DNA of 20,619 nt, from positions 1 to 20,619 of the IMG/VR virus record IMGVR_UViG_3300050026_000643. One strand, given 5' to 3'. A program made the position numbers and the translations under genes. Source of the stretch: a virus. The notes beneath the pieces are model-generated. The model saw only the letters and a program-made list of their open reading frames with translations. It ran no database searches and was not told where the DNA came from. Below are positions 11,796 through 20,619 of this stretch, one piece after another; the stretch's first letter is position 1, and each line of letters begins with the position of its first letter.

Positions 11796-12752
11796 ATGAG
11801 CAAGGATAAGCCTACGATTGGACTTGCGATTATCGCCAAGGACGAAGAGGCGGTCATCAAAGGATGTATCGATTCATGCCGGGGAGTTGACGAAGTCTCA
11901 GTCGTCGATACCGGCAGTACGGACAGAACCGTCGATATTGCTAAAGAGTGCGGGGCCATAGTTTCGGAGGGAGAATTCAACTGGCCCAATCCTCCCGATT
12001 ATTCCGGGATTGACTTCTCGGCGGCACGTAACAGGTCTCTCGACCTTCTCTCAACCGATTGGTTCATTTTCCTTGACGCGGACGAGCGGCTTGACAAGGG
12101 ATGTATCTGGAACATCAAGGCGCGGCTATCACGACTCGATCCAAAGATAGATACGCTTCTCGTCACCATGTACTCAGACAAGGGCGATACCTTCTGGCGC
12201 GAAAAAGTCATGAAGAGAAAACCAGAGCTACGTTTTGTGGGCCGAGTGCATGAAGGCATGGCCGATGAGTTCATGTGGGGAGAATATGCCGACAACATCA
12301 AAATAAAGTATGAACCAAGGGGGAACTCTGCACGCAATTATGCGATCCTACGGGAAGAAATAGCCCTCGACCCGGACAACATGCGACTACAATACCTCAT
12401 GGGCCGGGAAGAGTTTTGTTGGGGCAACTGTCCTTCGGCAATCTATTGGCTCGAAAGATATTTTCGGACATATGATCGCTCAGGTAAGAACCACCCTATG
12501 CGCTCGGCAGACGCGCTTTTCACCCTTTCCATGTGCCATGCTCGAATGAATGACATCAGGAAGGCAAAACAGTACGCTGGACAGTGCCTCACGGTTAACC
12601 CCGATTTCAGGGAAGCTGCACAGGTTCTCGCGGATATCGCCCATTTCGAGCAAAACGGGCTTGCCCATAGCCGATGGCTTGAGATGGTAAAAGGCGCACA
12701 AAATCGGGGTTTATGCTTTCAAAAGCGGTCTTTTTCTCAGGTGACCGCATAA
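11796..12752 (+). CDS. GT2 glycosyltransferase with TPR-like C-terminus (SunS-like), 318 aa
   Basis: The N-terminal half is a GT-A fold: GLAIIAKDEEAVIKGCIDS (9-27), VVDTGSTDRTVDIAKECGA (36-54), the metal-binding LDADE (93-97) and FVGRVHE (147-153). From about residue 179 to 285 the chain is helical with TPR-like spacing (ALDPDNMRLQYLMGREEFCWG, then SADALFTLSMCHARMNDIRKA, then CLTVNPDFREAAQVLADI). A GT-A domain fused to TPR helices is the layout of SunS, which puts sugar on a peptide cysteine, and of related protein or polysaccharide transferases, so a polypeptide acceptor is possible. Donor and acceptor are not determined. A GGGGGAGG site lies about 11 bases upstream. The stop overlaps the next ATG (TAATG). 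Confidence 0.82.
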   Translation: MSKDKPTIGLAIIAKDEEAVIKGCIDSCRGVDEVSVVDTGSTDRTVDIAKECGAIVSEGEFNWPNPPDYSGIDFSAARNRSLDLLSTDWFIFLDADERLDKGCIWNIKARLSRLDPKIDTLLVTMYSDKGDTFWREKVMKRKPELRFVGRVHEGMADEFMWGEYADNIKIKYEPRGNSARNYAILREEIALDPDNMRLQYLMGREEFCWGNCPSAIYWLERYFRTYDRSGKNHPMRSADALFTLSMCHARMNDIRKAKQYAGQCLTVNPDFREAAQVLADIAHFEQNGLAHSRWLEMVKGAQNRGLCFQKRSFSQVTA

Positions 12753-13387
12753 TGGATGCGCGAAAGTTCTATTCCGACAAACACCGTTTTTCTCTGATGC
12801 TCTCAGGAACAAAAAAGCGTCATTACATGGGTGAGGATTACCCTATTCTTAACGAAGACGAAAAACAGGATTTCGACCATCACTATATCTACCACACGGC
12901 ATGGGCGGCGCAGATACTCGCCAGAACCAAGCCACGCCGTCATGTCGATATAGGATCGTCTCTTTACTTCGCAGGGATAGTATCAGCCTTTATACCGATG
13001 GAACATTACGATTACCGGAAGCCCGATCTTACCCTTGATGGTCTTACCGTGGGTCATGCCGACCTGATGGCCCTACCTTTTCAGGACAACAGCGTCGAAT
13101 CGTTGTCCTGTATGCATGTGGTTGAACATTGTGGGCTTGGCCGCTATGGAGACCCCCTCGACCCCGATGGAGATCTGAAAGCAATGGAGGAGCTTTCTCG
13201 GGTGCTCGCTCCTGGCGGCCAACTCCTTTTCGTTGCGCCGATAGGAATACCTGCAATATGGTTCAACGCTCATCGTGTGTATACCGAAGGTCAGATCATA
13301 GACGCTTTTGATGGGCTGTATCTGAAAATAGGTGCAGAGCCAACACCAGGGTGCGGATGCTTTTGCTTTGGAAAGGCGGCAGCATGA
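12752..13387 (+). CDS. DUF268-type SAM methyltransferase-like protein, 211 aa
   Basis: A Rossmann-like start RRHVDIGSS (62-70) is followed by [20 protein letters not shown] (101-120) and a long conserved stretch [20 protein letters not shown] (121-140), then [18 protein letters not shown] (148-165) and FNAHRVYT (171-178). I recognise the [15 protein letters not shown] and FNAHR pattern as DUF268, found in surface-polysaccharide clusters and classed with methyltransferases. A sugar or glycan methylation role is inferred. ATG at 12752 overlaps the preceding stop and has AGGTG 8 bases upstream, so I prefer it to the in-frame ATG at 12713. The C-terminal GCGCFCFG is cysteine-rich. Confidence 0.75.
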
Positions 13388-14346
13388 AGGCTCTGGTAAT
13401 CGGGGCTACAGGGCAGGATGGTTCCTATCTTACCGAACTTCTCCTTTCCAAGGGCTACATTGTTCATGCGATGATTCGTCGGTCTTCCGTCATCAACACG
13501 GAGCGGATTGACCACCTTTACGATAATCCAAACCTTCACCGTCATTATGGTGACGTGGCCGACATGGGGTCCATGCTCGACCTCGTCTATAACGTGCAGC
13601 CGGACGAAATATACAACCTCGCTGCCATGTCGCACGTTCGCCTTTCCTTCGATATGCCGGAATATACAGGGGACGTAACCGGCCTTGGCGTCACTCGGTT
13701 ACTTGAAGCGGTAAAAAGGTCGGGCATAAAGACTCGGGTCTACCAGGCCAGTTCATCAGAGCTTTTCGGGTGCCAACCTCCCACCCAAAGCGAGTTAACC
13801 CCCTTTATGCCCGCCTCACCATACGGGTGTGCTAAATTGTACGCTCATTGGATGGCAGTCAACTATCGCAAGGCCTATGGGATGCATGTGTCTTGTGGCA
13901 TATTGTTCAACCATGAATCACCCAGGAGAGGCGAAGTCTTCGTGTCTCGTAAAATAGCGAAGGGATTAGCGGCCATAGTAAAAGGCGAACAGGACAAGTT
14001 GATACTCGGTAACCTCGATGCCTACCGCGATTGGGGGTATGCCCCCGATTTCGTCGAAATGATGTGGCGAATGATGCAAGAGGACAAGCCGGACGATTAT
14101 GTGGTCGGAACGGGGGAAAGCCATTCCGTCTATGAATTTTTGACGACCGCGGCACACTACGTTGGAATAGATGGAAGGGACCTGGGGGCCTTGGTCGAAG
14201 TGGGAGATAAGAGGTATATACGCCCCATAGAAGTAGATCATCTCCGGGCAGATGCAAAGAAGGCCCGCGAAAGGCTCGGATGGGAGCCTAAAACTACCTT
14301 CAACGAACTCGTCAAGATCATGATTGATGCGGAGATGGCGTCATGA
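13384..14346 (+). CDS. gmd: GDP-mannose 4,6-dehydratase, 320 aa
   Basis: This NADP-dependent SDR enzyme turns GDP-D-mannose into GDP-4-keto-6-deoxy-D-mannose, the precursor of GDP-fucose, GDP-rhamnose and related sugars. Seen are the nucleotide-binding [10 protein letters not shown] (7-16), the family segment [17 protein letters not shown] (30-46), the catalytic SSSELFG (123-129, with E126), SPYGCAK (145-151, Y147 and K151), [16 protein letters not shown] (176-191) and [21 protein letters not shown]. Every catalytic element is present, so it should be active. The length is at the short end of the family (about 325-370). ATG at 13384 overlaps the previous stop, with AAGG about 8 bases upstream. 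No GDP-fucose synthase (WcaG-like reductase/epimerase) follows. Confidence 0.93.
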
Positions 14347-16997
14347 GGTGTAACATCGTTTACTGCGATCTTTTGCCGGCCGATGTCCATACCGATAGCT
14401 TGGTTTATAATACGTTCGCCTTTTCCCGTGAACCGCTGCCGGGTTTCGACGTATACGCCTATCTCAACGTGACGAGCTTTAAAAAGCGCGTCGAGGGGAA
14501 GTACAACGTTCTGATTCTCGAAGAGCCTTCAGTTGTTTTGCCTCAACAGTATGACCCCAGGGTGTGGCAATGGTTCGATCATATCTTTACGGCACACGAT
14601 TATTTGTCCGATATGTACCCGGATAAGTTCACCTACATCTACACATGGCGCGGCGCGGACAACGTCACAATTACAGAGGACCTTGCCGAGAGGCAATCCC
14701 GGTATCCTCTCTACGGCAGAAAAAACGCTATTGTTATGGTGGCAGGGAATAAATCATCTCCTGTCCCTTCACAGATATACAGCATGAGAGCGGAGGCTGC
14801 AACGTGGTGGCACGAACATTCGTCCATGGACTTCAAGGTCTTCGGGACCCCCGCTTTCGACCTCCCCAATTATGAGGGGGCGGTAGCTCCGGGCCCTCTT
14901 CCTCGTCTCCGAAAGTTCGCGGAGTACCGTTACACATTTTGCACGGAGAATACAAACCATGACCTCTTCTCGAAAGGCTACCATCAAAAAATCCCCGACT
15001 GCCTTGAAGCACGCACCGTCCCGATCTACTACGGGTGCGCTAACATCGAAAAGTACGTACCAAAAAGCTGTTTCATCGACTTCCGGGACTACGGGAGTTA
15101 CGAAGCCGTGGACACGTATATTAGGGGCCTTACGGAAGACGATTACCTTGCTTATGTCGCGGCGATAGACGATTTTGTCTGTTCGGGTGGCCTTCGCCCG
15201 TGGTCATTGCAAACAACCTACAAGGAAATAGCACACTGGTATGATCTCGCAATCCAAAGGCCTAAGGGGGTATCAATGGAAAGCACGAATAAAACGGTAT
15301 GTATCGTATTCAGCAAGGACCGGGCCATGCAGTTGGACGGGTGTCTGAGAAGTCTATATCGGCACTGTGATGACGTTGACCGCATGGACGTGAAGGTTAT
15401 ATGGACTATTTCAAACACCAGGGCCTACGGTCAATATCGGATGCTTAGTAACGCTGCTTGGTTGACTGACACATCCGACTTCATCGAAGAGACCGACTTT
15501 CAGGCCGACCTTCTTGCCGCCATCAATGGCTACAAATACGTCATGTTCGTGACAGACGACACGATGTTTGTCCAAGACTTCACCGTATCGGGGGCAGTCT
15601 TGGCGTTAAAGCGTAGCTGCACTCTCGGCGTGTCTCTCAGGCTCGGCAGAAACGCCGTATACTGTTACATGCAGAATAAGGAGCAGAGGGTCCCCACAGG
15701 CAACATCTCTCCCTGGCTCGGTGGCGAAGGCGACTTCGGCTACCCCTTCGACCTCTCTTCTTCAATCTACCGGATCGCCGATCTTATGCCCCTTCTGGAG
15801 CAACCCGCATATAACTCACCGAACACTCTTGAGGCTTTCCTCGACTGGAGCAAGGGGCAGTTTGAGAACAAGCCGTATCTCTGGTACTATGATGAGTCGG
15901 TGGCATTTGCCAATCCCCTGAACAAAGTTCAGACGACCTTCACCGGCAACCGCTCCGGATCTGACCCTCGCTTCTCCGCTGAACATCTCGCCGACCTCTA
16001 CGACAAAGGATATCGCATCGACGTATCTGAATTCGACGGCTTTGTTCCTGACGGCGTTCATCAGGAAGTGGACCTTGAGTTTGTGGGACCCGTTGGCGAA
16101 CCTTACAAGGAAGAGAAGCCCATCGAAGTATCAATTCTCATGGTCAATTACGACGGGGGAGAAAATGTCAAGAAGGCACTTCAGTCCGTAGAACGGACGA
16201 TAGGCGATCACTCTTGCCAAATCATCGTGTGGGACAACAACAGCACCGACGGGTCTAAGGACTTCTTGCGAAAAGCAGCAGAGATTTTCGTCGAAAATCC
16301 GTTTTCCTTGATTCAAATGACCGTTATTGAGTCGGACGAAAATATTGGCATGGCCGCCCGCGCAGAATTGATCCCCCTCGCCAAAGGACAATACATAGTC
16401 ATCTGCGATAACGATATCATCTTTACGGACGGGTGGCTCGACAAGTGTCTCGCATGGGCCTCTGTAATCCCCAACCTCGGCATTATCGGACCTCGGACGA
16501 GCTATGCGTCGGGTCCGCAGATGATCGACGTTCCTGTGACCTATGGCGACGAGATAGAAGATATCGAGGCTTTCTCAAAAGCTTGGAGTGATGGATTCTT
16601 TACCGAGACCGAGCTTCCCCGAAAAGGTCAGCTTTGGCAGACGCCTCGCTTGGTGGGATTTTTTTTATTTATAACACCCGCTTGCATAGAGAAAATAGGA
16701 AATATCCGTAGATTCGGCAAGTTCGGATTCGAGGACGAAGATTATACGATACGAGCCTCCCTTGCGGGGCTTTTGGTGTTGATCGATAACGGCCTATACA
16801 TTCACCACACGGGGGGACCCCAGGGACAGGGCAATACCGAATACAACCGCCTCATGATGGAAGCATGGGACAAATTCAAGGTTGTATGGGGACTTCCTCC
16901 CGATTTAAAGTATGGGGCTACTAACCATATCGATACGATCATGCGTACAACGGCGTTTGATGAAGAGCGCCATTATCTACCCATAGAAGGAGAATAA
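14343..16997 (+). CDS. Three-domain glycosyltransferase: GT10 fucosyltransferase-like, GT-A and GT2, 884 aa
   Basis: ATG overlaps the gmd stop (ATGA). The N-terminal region (about 1-305) ends in a GT10-like C-lobe: [20 protein letters not shown] (195-214) and [20 protein letters not shown] (216-235), then CFIDFRDY (243-250), matching the family pattern EN....Y.TEK..DA...G.VP.YYG...I...P...FID. GT10 enzymes use GDP-fucose. The middle domain (about 316-580) begins [20 protein letters not shown] and carries TDD (404-406) as a likely metal site. The C-terminal domain (593-850) is a clear GT2: [28 protein letters not shown] (630-637), [10 protein letters not shown], and DNDIIF with DND at 689-691. 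One polypeptide could add several sugars in turn. A strong internal ribosome binding site precedes M312. Confidence 0.82.
15264..15278 (+). promoter_or_regulatory. Internal ribosome binding site and ATG inside the three-domain glycosyltransferase
   Basis: AAGGGGG (15264-15270) lies 5 bases before an in-frame ATG (15276), precisely at the junction between the GT10-like domain and the next domain. It could start a separate 573-aa protein lacking the GT10 part, or be a relic of two fused genes. Confidence 0.5.
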
Positions 16998-17774: not shown

Positions 17775-18539
17775 ATGGTTGTTACGGCACTTTCCCTGAT
17801 TCAAAAGGCGTGGAAAGATTGCGGGTTGCAGAAAATGGACCAATTGCCCCCGCAGAATGCCATTGCGGACGCTATCATCGACCTGAATATGCTCATCGAT
17901 TCGTGGGGCATACAGAAGGGAATGGCGATGGCCGACATAACGGAATCTTTCACGCTCAAGGCAGGGAAATACCTCTATCAGATTGGCCCGACGGCTCTCA
18001 CGGTAAATGGGGATTTTCAGACCGACAAACCGTGGGCAATCACTTCAGCCTACATTCAAGACCAGATGAATAATAGATATGACGTGGGGATTACCGATAA
18101 GGTGCTATGGCAGACCTACGAAGACGCGCTTATCACGAGTACCAGGCCGACTGAGCTTGTTTACGATCCCGGCCCCACGCAGCAGACCAACCAAGTTGGC
18201 ACAGTCATCATGTATCCGATCCCTGATGCACTACTCACCTACACGCTTTTTCTCGTTCAGCAGAAGCCCTTTACGGAGTTTTCCGGGCAAAACGATCAGG
18301 TGCAGTTTCCATCAGCCTATTACCTCGCCCTTCGGTACAATCTTGCCATTATGCTATGGCCTCAGTATCGGGACGACGGCGCACCCGTGGCCAAATGGCT
18401 TGCGGGGCAGGCAAGCAAATGGCAGCGCAAGATTATAGCCATGAATGCGAAGGCGGGGATATCTCAAATTGAAATAGGAAGGAAGAAGGGGAAGAGCAGC
18501 TATGATATTTTCCAAGGCCCATATTCGGGCGGAGGGTAA
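17775..18539 (+). CDS. P22 gp4-like tail accessory factor (head-tail adaptor), 254 aa
   Basis: In P22, gp4 binds beneath the portal after packaging and starts the tail machine. The N-terminal part, TALSLIQKAWKDCGL, then AIADAIIDLNMLIDSWGIQK and FTLKAGKYLYQIG, is typical of gp4-like adaptors, as are YPIPDALLTYTLFLVQQKPF and the helical AYYLALRYNLAIMLWPQY. It is longer than P22 gp4 (166 aa), which is common in relatives. It lies directly before the gp10-like gene, as in P22; its stop abuts that gene's start (TAAATG). It starts 2 bases after the previous stop. Confidence 0.75.
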   Translation: MVVTALSLIQKAWKDCGLQKMDQLPPQNAIADAIIDLNMLIDSWGIQKGMAMADITESFTLKAGKYLYQIGPTALTVNGDFQTDKPWAITSAYIQDQMNNRYDVGITDKVLWQTYEDALITSTRPTELVYDPGPTQQTNQVGTVIMYPIPDALLTYTLFLVQQKPFTEFSGQNDQVQFPSAYYLALRYNLAIMLWPQYRDDGAPVAKWLAGQASKWQRKIIAMNAKAGISQIEIGRKKGKSSYDIFQGPYSGGG

Positions 18540-20012
18540 ATGCGCTTCGATCTGATTGGCCCAGGGTACGCCGGATTTAACTCCCAATGGGACGCATCCC
18601 GCAACGTGAACCTGTTCCCCGCCCATGGTGCGCAAGGGTCAAAGTCTGAATGGGTGCTTCTCGGGACCCCCGGTACGATCCTGCGGTTTAACGTGGGCGT
18701 CTCCCCCATCCGGGCGATGCATCCCTTCGGCAGCGCTCTTTATGTCATATCGGGCAATCAACTTTACAGCATATCGTCAGCGGGGGCGGTGACGGCGATA
18801 CCGGGAGCGCAGATATCCACAATCGCCGGGAACGTCTTCATGAAAGACAACGCCCTGCAATCGTCAGGAACGGGCGGTAACCAACTAATGATTGTGGACG
18901 GGGCCAACGGTTACATTTGGAACCCCGCAACATCGACGTGGTCTACCATATCGGGGGGAGGATGGCCGGTTACCGCAACAGTAGGCCCAACGAGCCTGGA
19001 ATACATGGATGGATATTTCGTCGTGGGAGTGACAAACTCTCAGGCTATCTATGCATCAAACCTTTACGACGGGACGACTTATACAGGTCTGGCGTTCGCT
19101 TACGCGCAGTCCGCATCCGATTCCGTGCAAGCCTTCGTCAATATGCAGGAACAGCTTTGCATTATTAAACAATACACAACGGAGTTCTGGTACGATACTG
19201 GAATAGCTCCGCAGGTGGGCCTTCCCTTTGCTCGGCAAACATCCGCCGTTATCGATTACGGCACGCCGGCTCCCGCATCGGTGTCGAGAGGGTCGGGCTC
19301 TATTTTTATGCTCGCCAACCGAAGATCGGGAGACAGTCCCAACTTCATCGGCGCGGTTCAGATATTGAATGATATCCCTACCGTGATAACACCTCCGGCC
19401 ATCGTTAAGCAGATGGAGGCATGGGCACCGTGGAGTGATGTGGTAGCGTTCTGCTACGAGCAGGATGGTCATTCTTTCTGGCAAGTGACAAGCCCATCGG
19501 CAAACCAGACCTTTGTTTATGACGCATCGATAGGCGATCCTTCGATGGCATGGCACGAACGGTCAACCTACGTCGAAGGCTCTTTCTATTCGACTGGCAG
19601 ACATGTGGCGAATTGCTACGCCTATTTTAACGGCATGCACCTTGTGGGTGACTGGTCAACAGGAAACATTTACGAGATGAGGGGAGATATCTATCAGGAT
19701 AACGGCAGCCCTCTCATCGCAGTCAGGACATCGCAGATCATAGCCGACAAGAAGGGTGCCCTCAACTCTGTGAACCTCCGCCGGCTCATTCTCGACGTGC
19801 AAACAGGATATGGCGGCAATGTGGCCTTCTCGTGGTCCGACGACGGCGGGAATACATGGTCGGCAGATTATGTTCATTCAATGAGAGCGTCAGGGGATTT
19901 CAGAGGCGTTGACCCGTGGATGCCATTGGGACAGCATCCTTATGGTATGATCCCGAGAATAGCAATCAGTGACCCCGTGCCACGGATGATTGTGGGAGGA
20001 TATCTCGAATGA
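18540..20012 (+). CDS. P22 gp10-like packaged-DNA stabilisation protein (tail hub), 490 aa
   Basis: P22 gp10 (472 aa) forms a hexameric ring beneath gp4 and plugs the portal channel so DNA stays inside. The start IGPGYAGFNSQWDASRNVNLF followed by LLGTPGTI, the repeated 'G.LYVISGNQLYSIS' blades and FVNMQEQLCIIKQYTTEFWYD match the family, as do VSRGSGSIFMLANRRSG, AFCYEQDGHSFWQVT, WHERSTY and the late FSWSDDGGNTWS. The repeated strands suggest a beta-propeller. Order, length and spacing (stop-to-start contact with the gp4-like gene; ATGA overlap with the next) agree with a P22-type head-tail module. Confidence 0.88.
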   Translation: MRFDLIGPGYAGFNSQWDASRNVNLFPAHGAQGSKSEWVLLGTPGTILRFNVGVSPIRAMHPFGSALYVISGNQLYSISSAGAVTAIPGAQISTIAGNVFMKDNALQSSGTGGNQLMIVDGANGYIWNPATSTWSTISGGGWPVTATVGPTSLEYMDGYFVVGVTNSQAIYASNLYDGTTYTGLAFAYAQSASDSVQAFVNMQEQLCIIKQYTTEFWYDTGIAPQVGLPFARQTSAVIDYGTPAPASVSRGSGSIFMLANRRSGDSPNFIGAVQILNDIPTVITPPAIVKQMEAWAPWSDVVAFCYEQDGHSFWQVTSPSANQTFVYDASIGDPSMAWHERSTYVEGSFYSTGRHVANCYAYFNGMHLVGDWSTGNIYEMRGDIYQDNGSPLIAVRTSQIIADKKGALNSVNLRRLILDVQTGYGGNVAFSWSDDGGNTWSADYVHSMRASGDFRGVDPWMPLGQHPYGMIPRIAISDPVPRMIVGGYLE

Positions 20013-20398
20013 TCCAGCTCGACAACGCTCCTGATGGGTCAATCCCCCTTAATAATTCAAGATGGAAGGGATGGTTTACAAAACTTCAAGCCATGGTCAA
20101 CGGGTGCTTCGGCCCCGGTCAGGTGTGGCAAAACATGACGAGTAGCAGGGCAGTGGGGCAGGCATATACCAATAATACTCTTCGGCCAATTATGGCGGAG
20201 GTAACTGTCGTTGAATCGGGATACACCTATTTTGTGGTGACTAAAAAAGTTAATGGAAATGAAGTGTCGCACGATACGATAGCTACTATAATAGGTGGTA
20301 CGTACTATCATGCAGCAACTCTGGTAGTCCCTCCTGGGGCAACATATGAAATAACCGTTTCACAAGCAGCTTTATATGAATGGTGGGAACTATCATGA
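20009..20398 (+). CDS. Tail protein, probably receptor-binding or spike-associated, 129 aa
   Basis: ATG overlaps the gp10-like stop (ATGA). The N-terminus (MIQLDNAPDGSIPLNNSRWKGWFTKLQAMVN) seems to be an attachment helix region. From residue about 38 it has VWQNMTSSRAVGQAYTNNTL and RPIMAEVTVV, then VVPPGATYEITVSQAALYEWWEL. This 'W.....SR..G..Y.N.T.RPI...V' plus 'VPPGATY.' pattern is familiar from small beta-sandwich domains of phage tail fibre or spike tips. Position after gp10 supports a tail role. The receptor is unknown. Short for a full fibre, it could be a tip or cofactor. Confidence 0.65.
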   Translation: MIQLDNAPDGSIPLNNSRWKGWFTKLQAMVNGCFGPGQVWQNMTSSRAVGQAYTNNTLRPIMAEVTVVESGYTYFVVTKKVNGNEVSHDTIATIIGGTYYHAATLVVPPGATYEITVSQAALYEWWELS

Positions 20399-20619
20399 TG
20401 ACCCGCTCTTTGTGCCCGATTTGTTATAAGGAGATTCCCGCCGATGTCGCACTCGGCAACCAGGTCTACATGGTGAAGGTATGCCCCGACCACGGCCCCT
20501 TCACCGGGCTCGTGGAGAGGGACCCCCAGTGGTGGCTTTTGTGCCGCCGGTTGAAAAGCGGCCCTTTCTTCCCCGGCCATATCGTCGACGTGACGAGCCG
20601 GTGTAACCTGACATGCGCC
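20395..20619 (+). CDS. Radical SAM enzyme, N-terminus only, cut by window edge
   Basis: ATG at 20395 overlaps the preceding stop (ATGATGA), so the gene continues the same operon. The first 75 codons show an N-terminal zinc-knuckle-like part, SLCPICYKEIPADV (5-18) and VYMVKVCPDHGPFTGLVERD (25-44). After that comes HIVDVTSRCNLTCA, the beginning of the CxxxCxxC [4Fe-4S] motif. This N-terminal layout resembles a radical SAM group that includes archaeal membrane-lipid (tetraether) synthases and many uncharacterised enzymes. The local base composition is more GC-rich than nearby genes. Substrate and role are unknown; a modification enzyme for a virion protein, lipid or peptide are options. Confidence 0.7.
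   Translation, partial: MMTRSLCPICYKEIPADVALGNQVYMVKVCPDHGPFTGLVERDPQWWLLCRRLKSGPFFPGHIVDVTSRCNLTCA

Follow-up and report, generated by a model that had tools for sequence, protein, structure and literature searches.

The window analysed here is the whole of a viral contig of 20,619 bases (20.6 kb), so that its right edge is also the end of the contig; all of the features described below lie on its plus strand. A head-tail adaptor gene (17775..18539) was recognised by matches to phrog_12985 (E 5.9e-20), phrog_637 (Ad3) and, slightly below cut-off, PF24175 SU10_adaptor (E 1.2e-5). It is followed by a gene for head closure protein Hc3, a packaged-DNA stabilisation protein (18540..20012; phrog_578, E 4.5e-79), with relatives in 46 phage records and three IMG/VR contigs, and by a gene for a short tail-fibre-type protein of 129 amino acids (20009..20398), which matches PHROG tail fibre and tail-like families (E 5.5e-10 to 2e-15) and has a 139-residue homologue at locus L001 of the closest Hc3 relative, G001. 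Genes for a P22-type coat protein, a portal and a terminase are found further upstream of the adaptor. The last open reading frame (ORF) of the window (20395..20619) comprises the N-terminal 75 codons of a radical S-adenosylmethionine (SAM) gene that stays open through the final base and is cut by the contig end; its start codon shares the sequence ATGATGA with the overlapping stop codon of the tail-type ORF, making translational coupling of the two plausible. With coat, portal, terminase, adaptor and Hc3 genes upstream, this ORF is therefore within a P22-like podovirus structural operon. The same operon region contains a glycan cassette (11796..16997) encoding a GT2 glycosyltransferase, a methyltransferase with a DUF268 domain, a GDP-mannose 4,6-dehydratase and a GT10/GT2 fusion. 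The fusion (14343-16997) is a protein of 884 amino acids with an N-terminal GT10 (fucosyltransferase-type) domain, a C-terminal GT2 domain and a middle part to which no domain was assigned.

The truncated protein contains a putative rubredoxin-like site made up of C7 (20413-20415), C10 (20422-20424), C30 (20482-20484) and H33 (20491-20493), with the spacing C7X2C10X19C30X2H33, and then VDVTSRCNLTCA, with which the radical-SAM cluster motif opens and which supplies the first two cysteines of CxxxCxxC, C70 (20602-20604) and C74 (20614-20616). The window ends just after CNLTC, and the third cluster cysteine (C77 in relatives) falls past the contig end. The protein matches Pfam family PF23545 Zn_ribbon_HMPTM (E 1.1e-14; 54.1 bits against a cut-off of 27), the N-termini of the TrsS and tetraether synthase (Tes) models (E 1.3e-11 and 2.1e-9), and the solved Tes structure 7TOL (E 4e-7), the last match extending into the radical-SAM motif (VDVTSRCNLTC in the window, IDVTNRCNLNC in 7TOL). 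The Tes model NF045702 scores 36.6 bits on this 75-residue fragment, a length at which the cut-off of 450 bits is out of reach. A profile of the viral relatives described below (A4) matches the window at E 3.9e-31, which rules out chance, and the full-length relatives pass PF04055 with all three cluster cysteines present, the exception being L100, slightly below the PF04055 cut-off. Judged by these sequence matches, the cut-off ORF is a genuine radical-SAM enzyme gene with a zinc-ribbon-like N-terminus, as a sequence-only reading had proposed from a zinc-knuckle/radical-SAM arrangement; that reading had also put the gene at the end of the tail module, which agrees with its location after Hc3 and a tail-type ORF and with the similar position of the gene in podovirus relatives. 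We regard identity and placement, taken jointly, as nearly certain.

No viral relatives were recovered by a scan with the 75-residue query alone or with a single Tes sequence. The profile that succeeded had four rows, namely the window protein (P0001), Tes and two consensus rows that we composed for pattern choice only; it gave 14 viral loci, each match being confirmed with the window protein itself. A second profile, built on those full-length viral proteins, led to 144 confirmed viral stretches, 80 of which were retained, and 87 proteins were recovered, forming 45 clusters at 90% identity. The recovered proteins are 305-393 amino acids long, with the exception of one that is cut by a contig end; the complete podovirus relatives have 311-330 amino acids, and the highest identities over the stretch present in the window are 59, 55 and 53%. 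Seven ligands (three cysteines and one histidine of the ribbon, three cysteines of the core) are invariant in a 15-row viral alignment, a universality that is partly by construction, as the search patterns contained part of the ligand motifs; no further cysteine is invariant. The 11 best matches of the window protein are all podovirus tail-module members (103 down to 56.6 bits), and the best cellular match scores 46.7 bits. Thus, the window protein, nearest to viral members and encoded after Hc3 and a tail protein, falls within the viral tail-module branch.

When the 50,697 phage records of INPHARED were searched by tblastn with the fragment and four full-length forms, only generic matches to the radical-SAM core were obtained. 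The idea that radical-SAM genes are rare in phage structural operons thus holds for the isolates in INPHARED but fails for uncultured viruses, in which this branch recurs in the tail position. No viral structure with the full architecture was found in BFVD (best TM-score by query 0.50), although the lack of a match in that database does not prove absence. Enzymes of the Tes, TrsS and HMPTM types are already known, as are radical-SAM genes in phages; the literature search turned up no earlier description of this family, or of a virus-only branch that lacks auxiliary clusters and is fixed in the tail module, only a remark on pelagimyophages that is considered below.

The N-terminal ribbon of Tes is a rubredoxin-like iron site with the motif C9X2C12X20C33X2H36 (PMC9433317). 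The enzyme of the closest complete relative, L089, was modelled by AlphaFold with a pLDDT of 93.5 and a pTM of 0.90, and 308 of 315 residues of the model align with 7TOL (Z 30.2, rmsd 2.8); the second-best structural match, MoaA (Z 16.6), is to the core only. On this model, the viral enzyme would be a reduced Tes-type scaffold. Tes, also called GDGT-MAS (MJ0619; PDB 7TOL; NF045702), and the viral proteins have in common the C-x2-C-x(19-20)-C-x2-H site and a radical-SAM core with VTxRCNLxC, but Tes alone has the N-terminal auxiliary [4Fe-4S] triad and the cysteines of a C-terminal auxiliary cluster, the domain of which includes Met439 and Tyr459, its model extends over 486 positions, and its viral counterparts are found among phage tail genes. 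A single Cx(2-3)CxxC motif is present in each of the 45 viral representatives, versus two in 71 of 78 cellular proteins, the first of these two being the Tes N-terminal auxiliary triad (C73, C77 and C80 in 7TOL). In the window, C50 is the sole cysteine between ribbon and core, and in the viral relatives no cysteine downstream of the radical-SAM triad is conserved. The full-length relatives score 61-90 bits against NF045702 (cut-off 450). Membership in Tes was rejected on these scores, far below cut-off, and on the missing auxiliary cluster motifs. The radical SAM (seleno)protein TrsS (NF045646) resembles the viral proteins in its N-terminal ribbon and core and is the top or second NCBIfam match for nine viral members that were scanned, although the full-length relatives reach only 60-97 bits against its cut-off of 490 and the cellular TrsS-type proteins sampled occupy a separate branch of the tree.

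The sequence-only reading had called for a phylogeny against known radical-SAM groups. In a tree inferred by maximum likelihood, 45 viral proteins are separated from 41 cellular ones by one branch with support of 100/100; the cellular Tes/TrsS-type set is the non-exhaustive product of a single pattern scan. When the viral profile was applied to whole genomes, viral members scored 162-440 bits, and the best cellular proteins, a tandem pair from an Omnitrophota metagenome-assembled genome (L012), scored 178 and 170 bits. A threshold of E 1e-35 was passed by no protein in 398 genomes of the Telmatospirillum phylum and 395 genomes of the Citrifermentans phylum, and it was passed in 6 of 285 genomes of the Omnitrophota phylum. 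The scores of a divergent podovirus subgroup (L100, L123, L131 and L163) are about the same as those of the best cellular proteins, and its membership therefore rests on the tree and on genomic position. Relative to the cellular proteins sampled, the viral proteins appear to constitute a virus-only branch of the Tes/HMPTM/TrsS superfamily. The tandem ribbon radical-SAM proteins of L012 (381-2790; 394 and 398 amino acids) are short Zn_ribbon_HMPTM proteins that are like the viral ones in having the ribbon and one CxxxCxxC without the N-terminal auxiliary cluster, but they are on the cellular side of the tree and their neighbours are cellular-type ORFs rather than virion genes.

The gene order in uncultured P22-like podovirus relatives is adaptor, Hc3, short tail protein, radical-SAM enzyme, GNAT acetyltransferase, DNA-ejection protein. 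Among 15 non-redundant podovirus representatives, 13 have Hc3 on the same strand as the radical-SAM gene and no more than four genes upstream of it, with virion genes after the radical-SAM gene, and the possibility of a host gene beyond a prophage boundary was rejected on these grounds. A GNAT gene directly adjoins the radical-SAM gene in 10 of the 15 (clusters c20 and c37; phrog_1249 in L105); in the window, no GNAT gene lies upstream of the radical-SAM gene, within which the contig ends. A gene for a B12-binding radical-SAM enzyme, belonging to a cluster that was assembled from BLAST matches and may comprise more than one subfamily, is directly upstream in L089, L090, L104 and L106, and a DNA ejection protein (phrog_598) is encoded downstream in L104. 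The short structural ORF upstream of the radical-SAM gene varies among relatives, and neither a short precursor peptide nor a constant target gene was evident upstream. In G001, a gene for a cupin-like protein (L001 12057-12560) replaces the radical-SAM gene after the homologous short tail ORF, and thus genes are exchanged at this slot, which accepts varied cargo. Two further podoviruses related by Hc3, G002 and G003, share a pair of radical-SAM enzymes of SPASM type (L002 6209-7153) and B12 type (L003 932-2518), which are found with an aldo/keto-reductase-like ORF in the glycosyltransferase region.

A second context was noted in large contigs, where the radical-SAM gene is beside genes for Mtd_N tail-fibre-type proteins, GNAT-like proteins (cluster c2, called GNAT by eye and without a Pfam or PHROG match) and tandem B12-binding radical-SAM enzymes. 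Genes for an Asp/Arg hydroxylase, a 2OG-Fe(II) oxygenase, a tryptophan halogenase, an aminotransferase, a short-chain dehydrogenase/reductase (SDR) and an AdoMet decarboxylase are also present in this context. Two of these contigs, G1099 (the L117 record, 79,749 bp) and G1100 (the L158 record, 116,456 bp), have 13 and 9 radical-SAM domain matches, respectively, a repertoire of radical enzymes that is unusually dense for a virus, in a group that also has 2OG oxygenases, tryptophan halogenase and GNAT-like genes. On another contig (L169 8935-11035), the ribbon radical-SAM gene is present as two adjoining viral copies. Radical-SAM cassettes are mentioned in the host-recognition cluster of pelagimyophages (PMC7029224), where, as in the large contigs, the radical-SAM genes are amid tail-fibre genes of the structural region; as far as that account was consulted, the family, the N-terminal domain and any occurrence in podoviruses are left undefined. 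By analogy, those cassettes may include members of the tail-module family.

The explanation that best accounts for these features, to which we assign a probability of roughly one half, is that the ORF is a late phage gene for a compact radical-SAM enzyme of a virus-only branch that modifies a component of the tail, the receptor-binding apparatus or the ejection machinery. Radical-SAM enzymes act by reductive cleavage of SAM and removal of hydrogen from a substrate carbon. In the predicted viral enzyme, an N-terminal rubredoxin-like metal site (C7, C10, C30 and H33) would be fused to a radical-SAM core without auxiliary [4Fe-4S] motifs; by analogy with the family, the [4Fe-4S] cluster at CxxxCxxC would cleave SAM to give a 5'-deoxyadenosyl radical, which would in turn take hydrogen from the substrate at an unactivated carbon. 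Because the auxiliary clusters appear to be absent, redox-neutral or simple C-H functionalisation would be the most likely outcome, and cluster-bound intermediate chemistry like that of Tes is unlikely. Location and partner genes suggest that the enzyme would be expressed late and would modify a tail, receptor-binding or ejection protein, and that the GNAT acetyltransferase that often adjoins it, and in some phages the B12-binding radical-SAM enzyme, would act alongside it. A virion component is preferred as the target because what stays constant among the relatives is the tail/ejection slot and, in many of them, a GNAT gene. That the substrate is a protein is somewhat more doubtful: the GNAT and B12 radical-SAM partners would fit a pathway for amino sugars or small molecules just as well, the large contigs include the aminotransferase, SDR and AdoMet decarboxylase, and the upstream tail protein is variable and offers no constant target. 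More tentative still is the idea of a system of virion post-translational modification not described before, in which a dedicated module of a radical-SAM enzyme and a GNAT, in some cases joined by a B12-dependent radical-SAM enzyme, would covalently modify tail or receptor-binding proteins; it would occur in two or more unrelated phage groups, namely the P22-like podoviruses and the large marine phages, which are probably T4-like.

The glycan cassette of the window, which the sequence-only reading had linked to the radical-SAM gene as joint means of altering the particle or the host surface, raises the alternative of an enzyme that, together with the products of 11796-16997, produces or alters an uncommon sugar or another precursor of surface glycans, destined for host lipopolysaccharide or a glycosylated virion. 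The GDP-mannose dehydratase, GT10, GT2 and methyltransferase domains encoded upstream are consistent with this, as are the radical-SAM enzymes of other families within the glycosyltransferase cassettes of G002 and G003 and, since GNATs act on amino sugars, the GNAT partner. However, those radical-SAM enzymes are of types other than the tail-module type, and the window, which has both a GT2 and a nucleotide-sugar epimerase, is not matched in this by its relatives: neither a GT2 above cut-off nor a nucleotide-sugar epimerase was found in 14 other podovirus records with the radical-SAM gene, which may be fragments, in a census that covered these two functions, and G001, G002 and G003 have GT2s without the tail-module radical-SAM family. 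The enzyme and the cassette therefore seem to be carried independently of each other; a functional tie between them was rejected on the GT2 and epimerase censuses, and we consider a role of the enzyme in sugar or surface-glycan synthesis unlikely.

Another alternative is that the gene is a generic auxiliary metabolic gene or moron, acquired from a host into a permissive late slot and without a role in the virion. The cupin-type gene that G001 has at this position, which indicates that varied cargo is accepted, and the multiplicity of radical-SAM domains in the two large contigs would fit such an origin, but the virus-only branch with its 100/100 support and a slot that is kept across podoviruses with enzymes down to 34% identical to that of L089 argue for long residence in phages, and no close cellular donor was found in the genomes of the Telmatospirillum and Citrifermentans phyla that were searched. 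This origin is rather improbable. Modified thymidines are substrates of radical-SAM enzymes and acetyltransferases in some phages, and the radical-SAM and GNAT pair is reminiscent of such pathways of DNA base hypermodification, for which no paper on this pair was found; the gene is, however, in the tail module and not the replication module, and 5-hmdU DNA kinase (PF18723) was found in none of 17 records, a weak indication as the controls gave none either, so that involvement in DNA hypermodification is highly improbable. Least probable is that the enzyme modifies lipids of the host or the virion in the manner of tetraether synthase: the likeness to such enzymes that the sequence-only reading had proposed is real as a resemblance of fold, Tes being the closest solved structure and a full-length fold match, but it does not extend to a lipid activity of the Tes kind, given the low Tes scores (about 60-90 bits against 450), the one cysteine triad in all 45 representatives, the lack of conserved C-terminal cysteines and the length of 305-393 amino acids against a model of 486 positions.

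A directly testable short list is at hand in the complete enzymes of L089 (confidently modelled), L091 and L104 with their candidate partners, and the contrast with tetraether synthase is a clean one, the scaffold being the same and the auxiliary clusters absent. Radical-SAM enzymes carry out C-H reactions that are among the most difficult in biology. The presence in more than 100 uncultured viral contigs, but in none of the 50,697 phage records searched, of a virus-only branch set in the tail operon suggests that radical chemistry may take place during the assembly of these virus particles.
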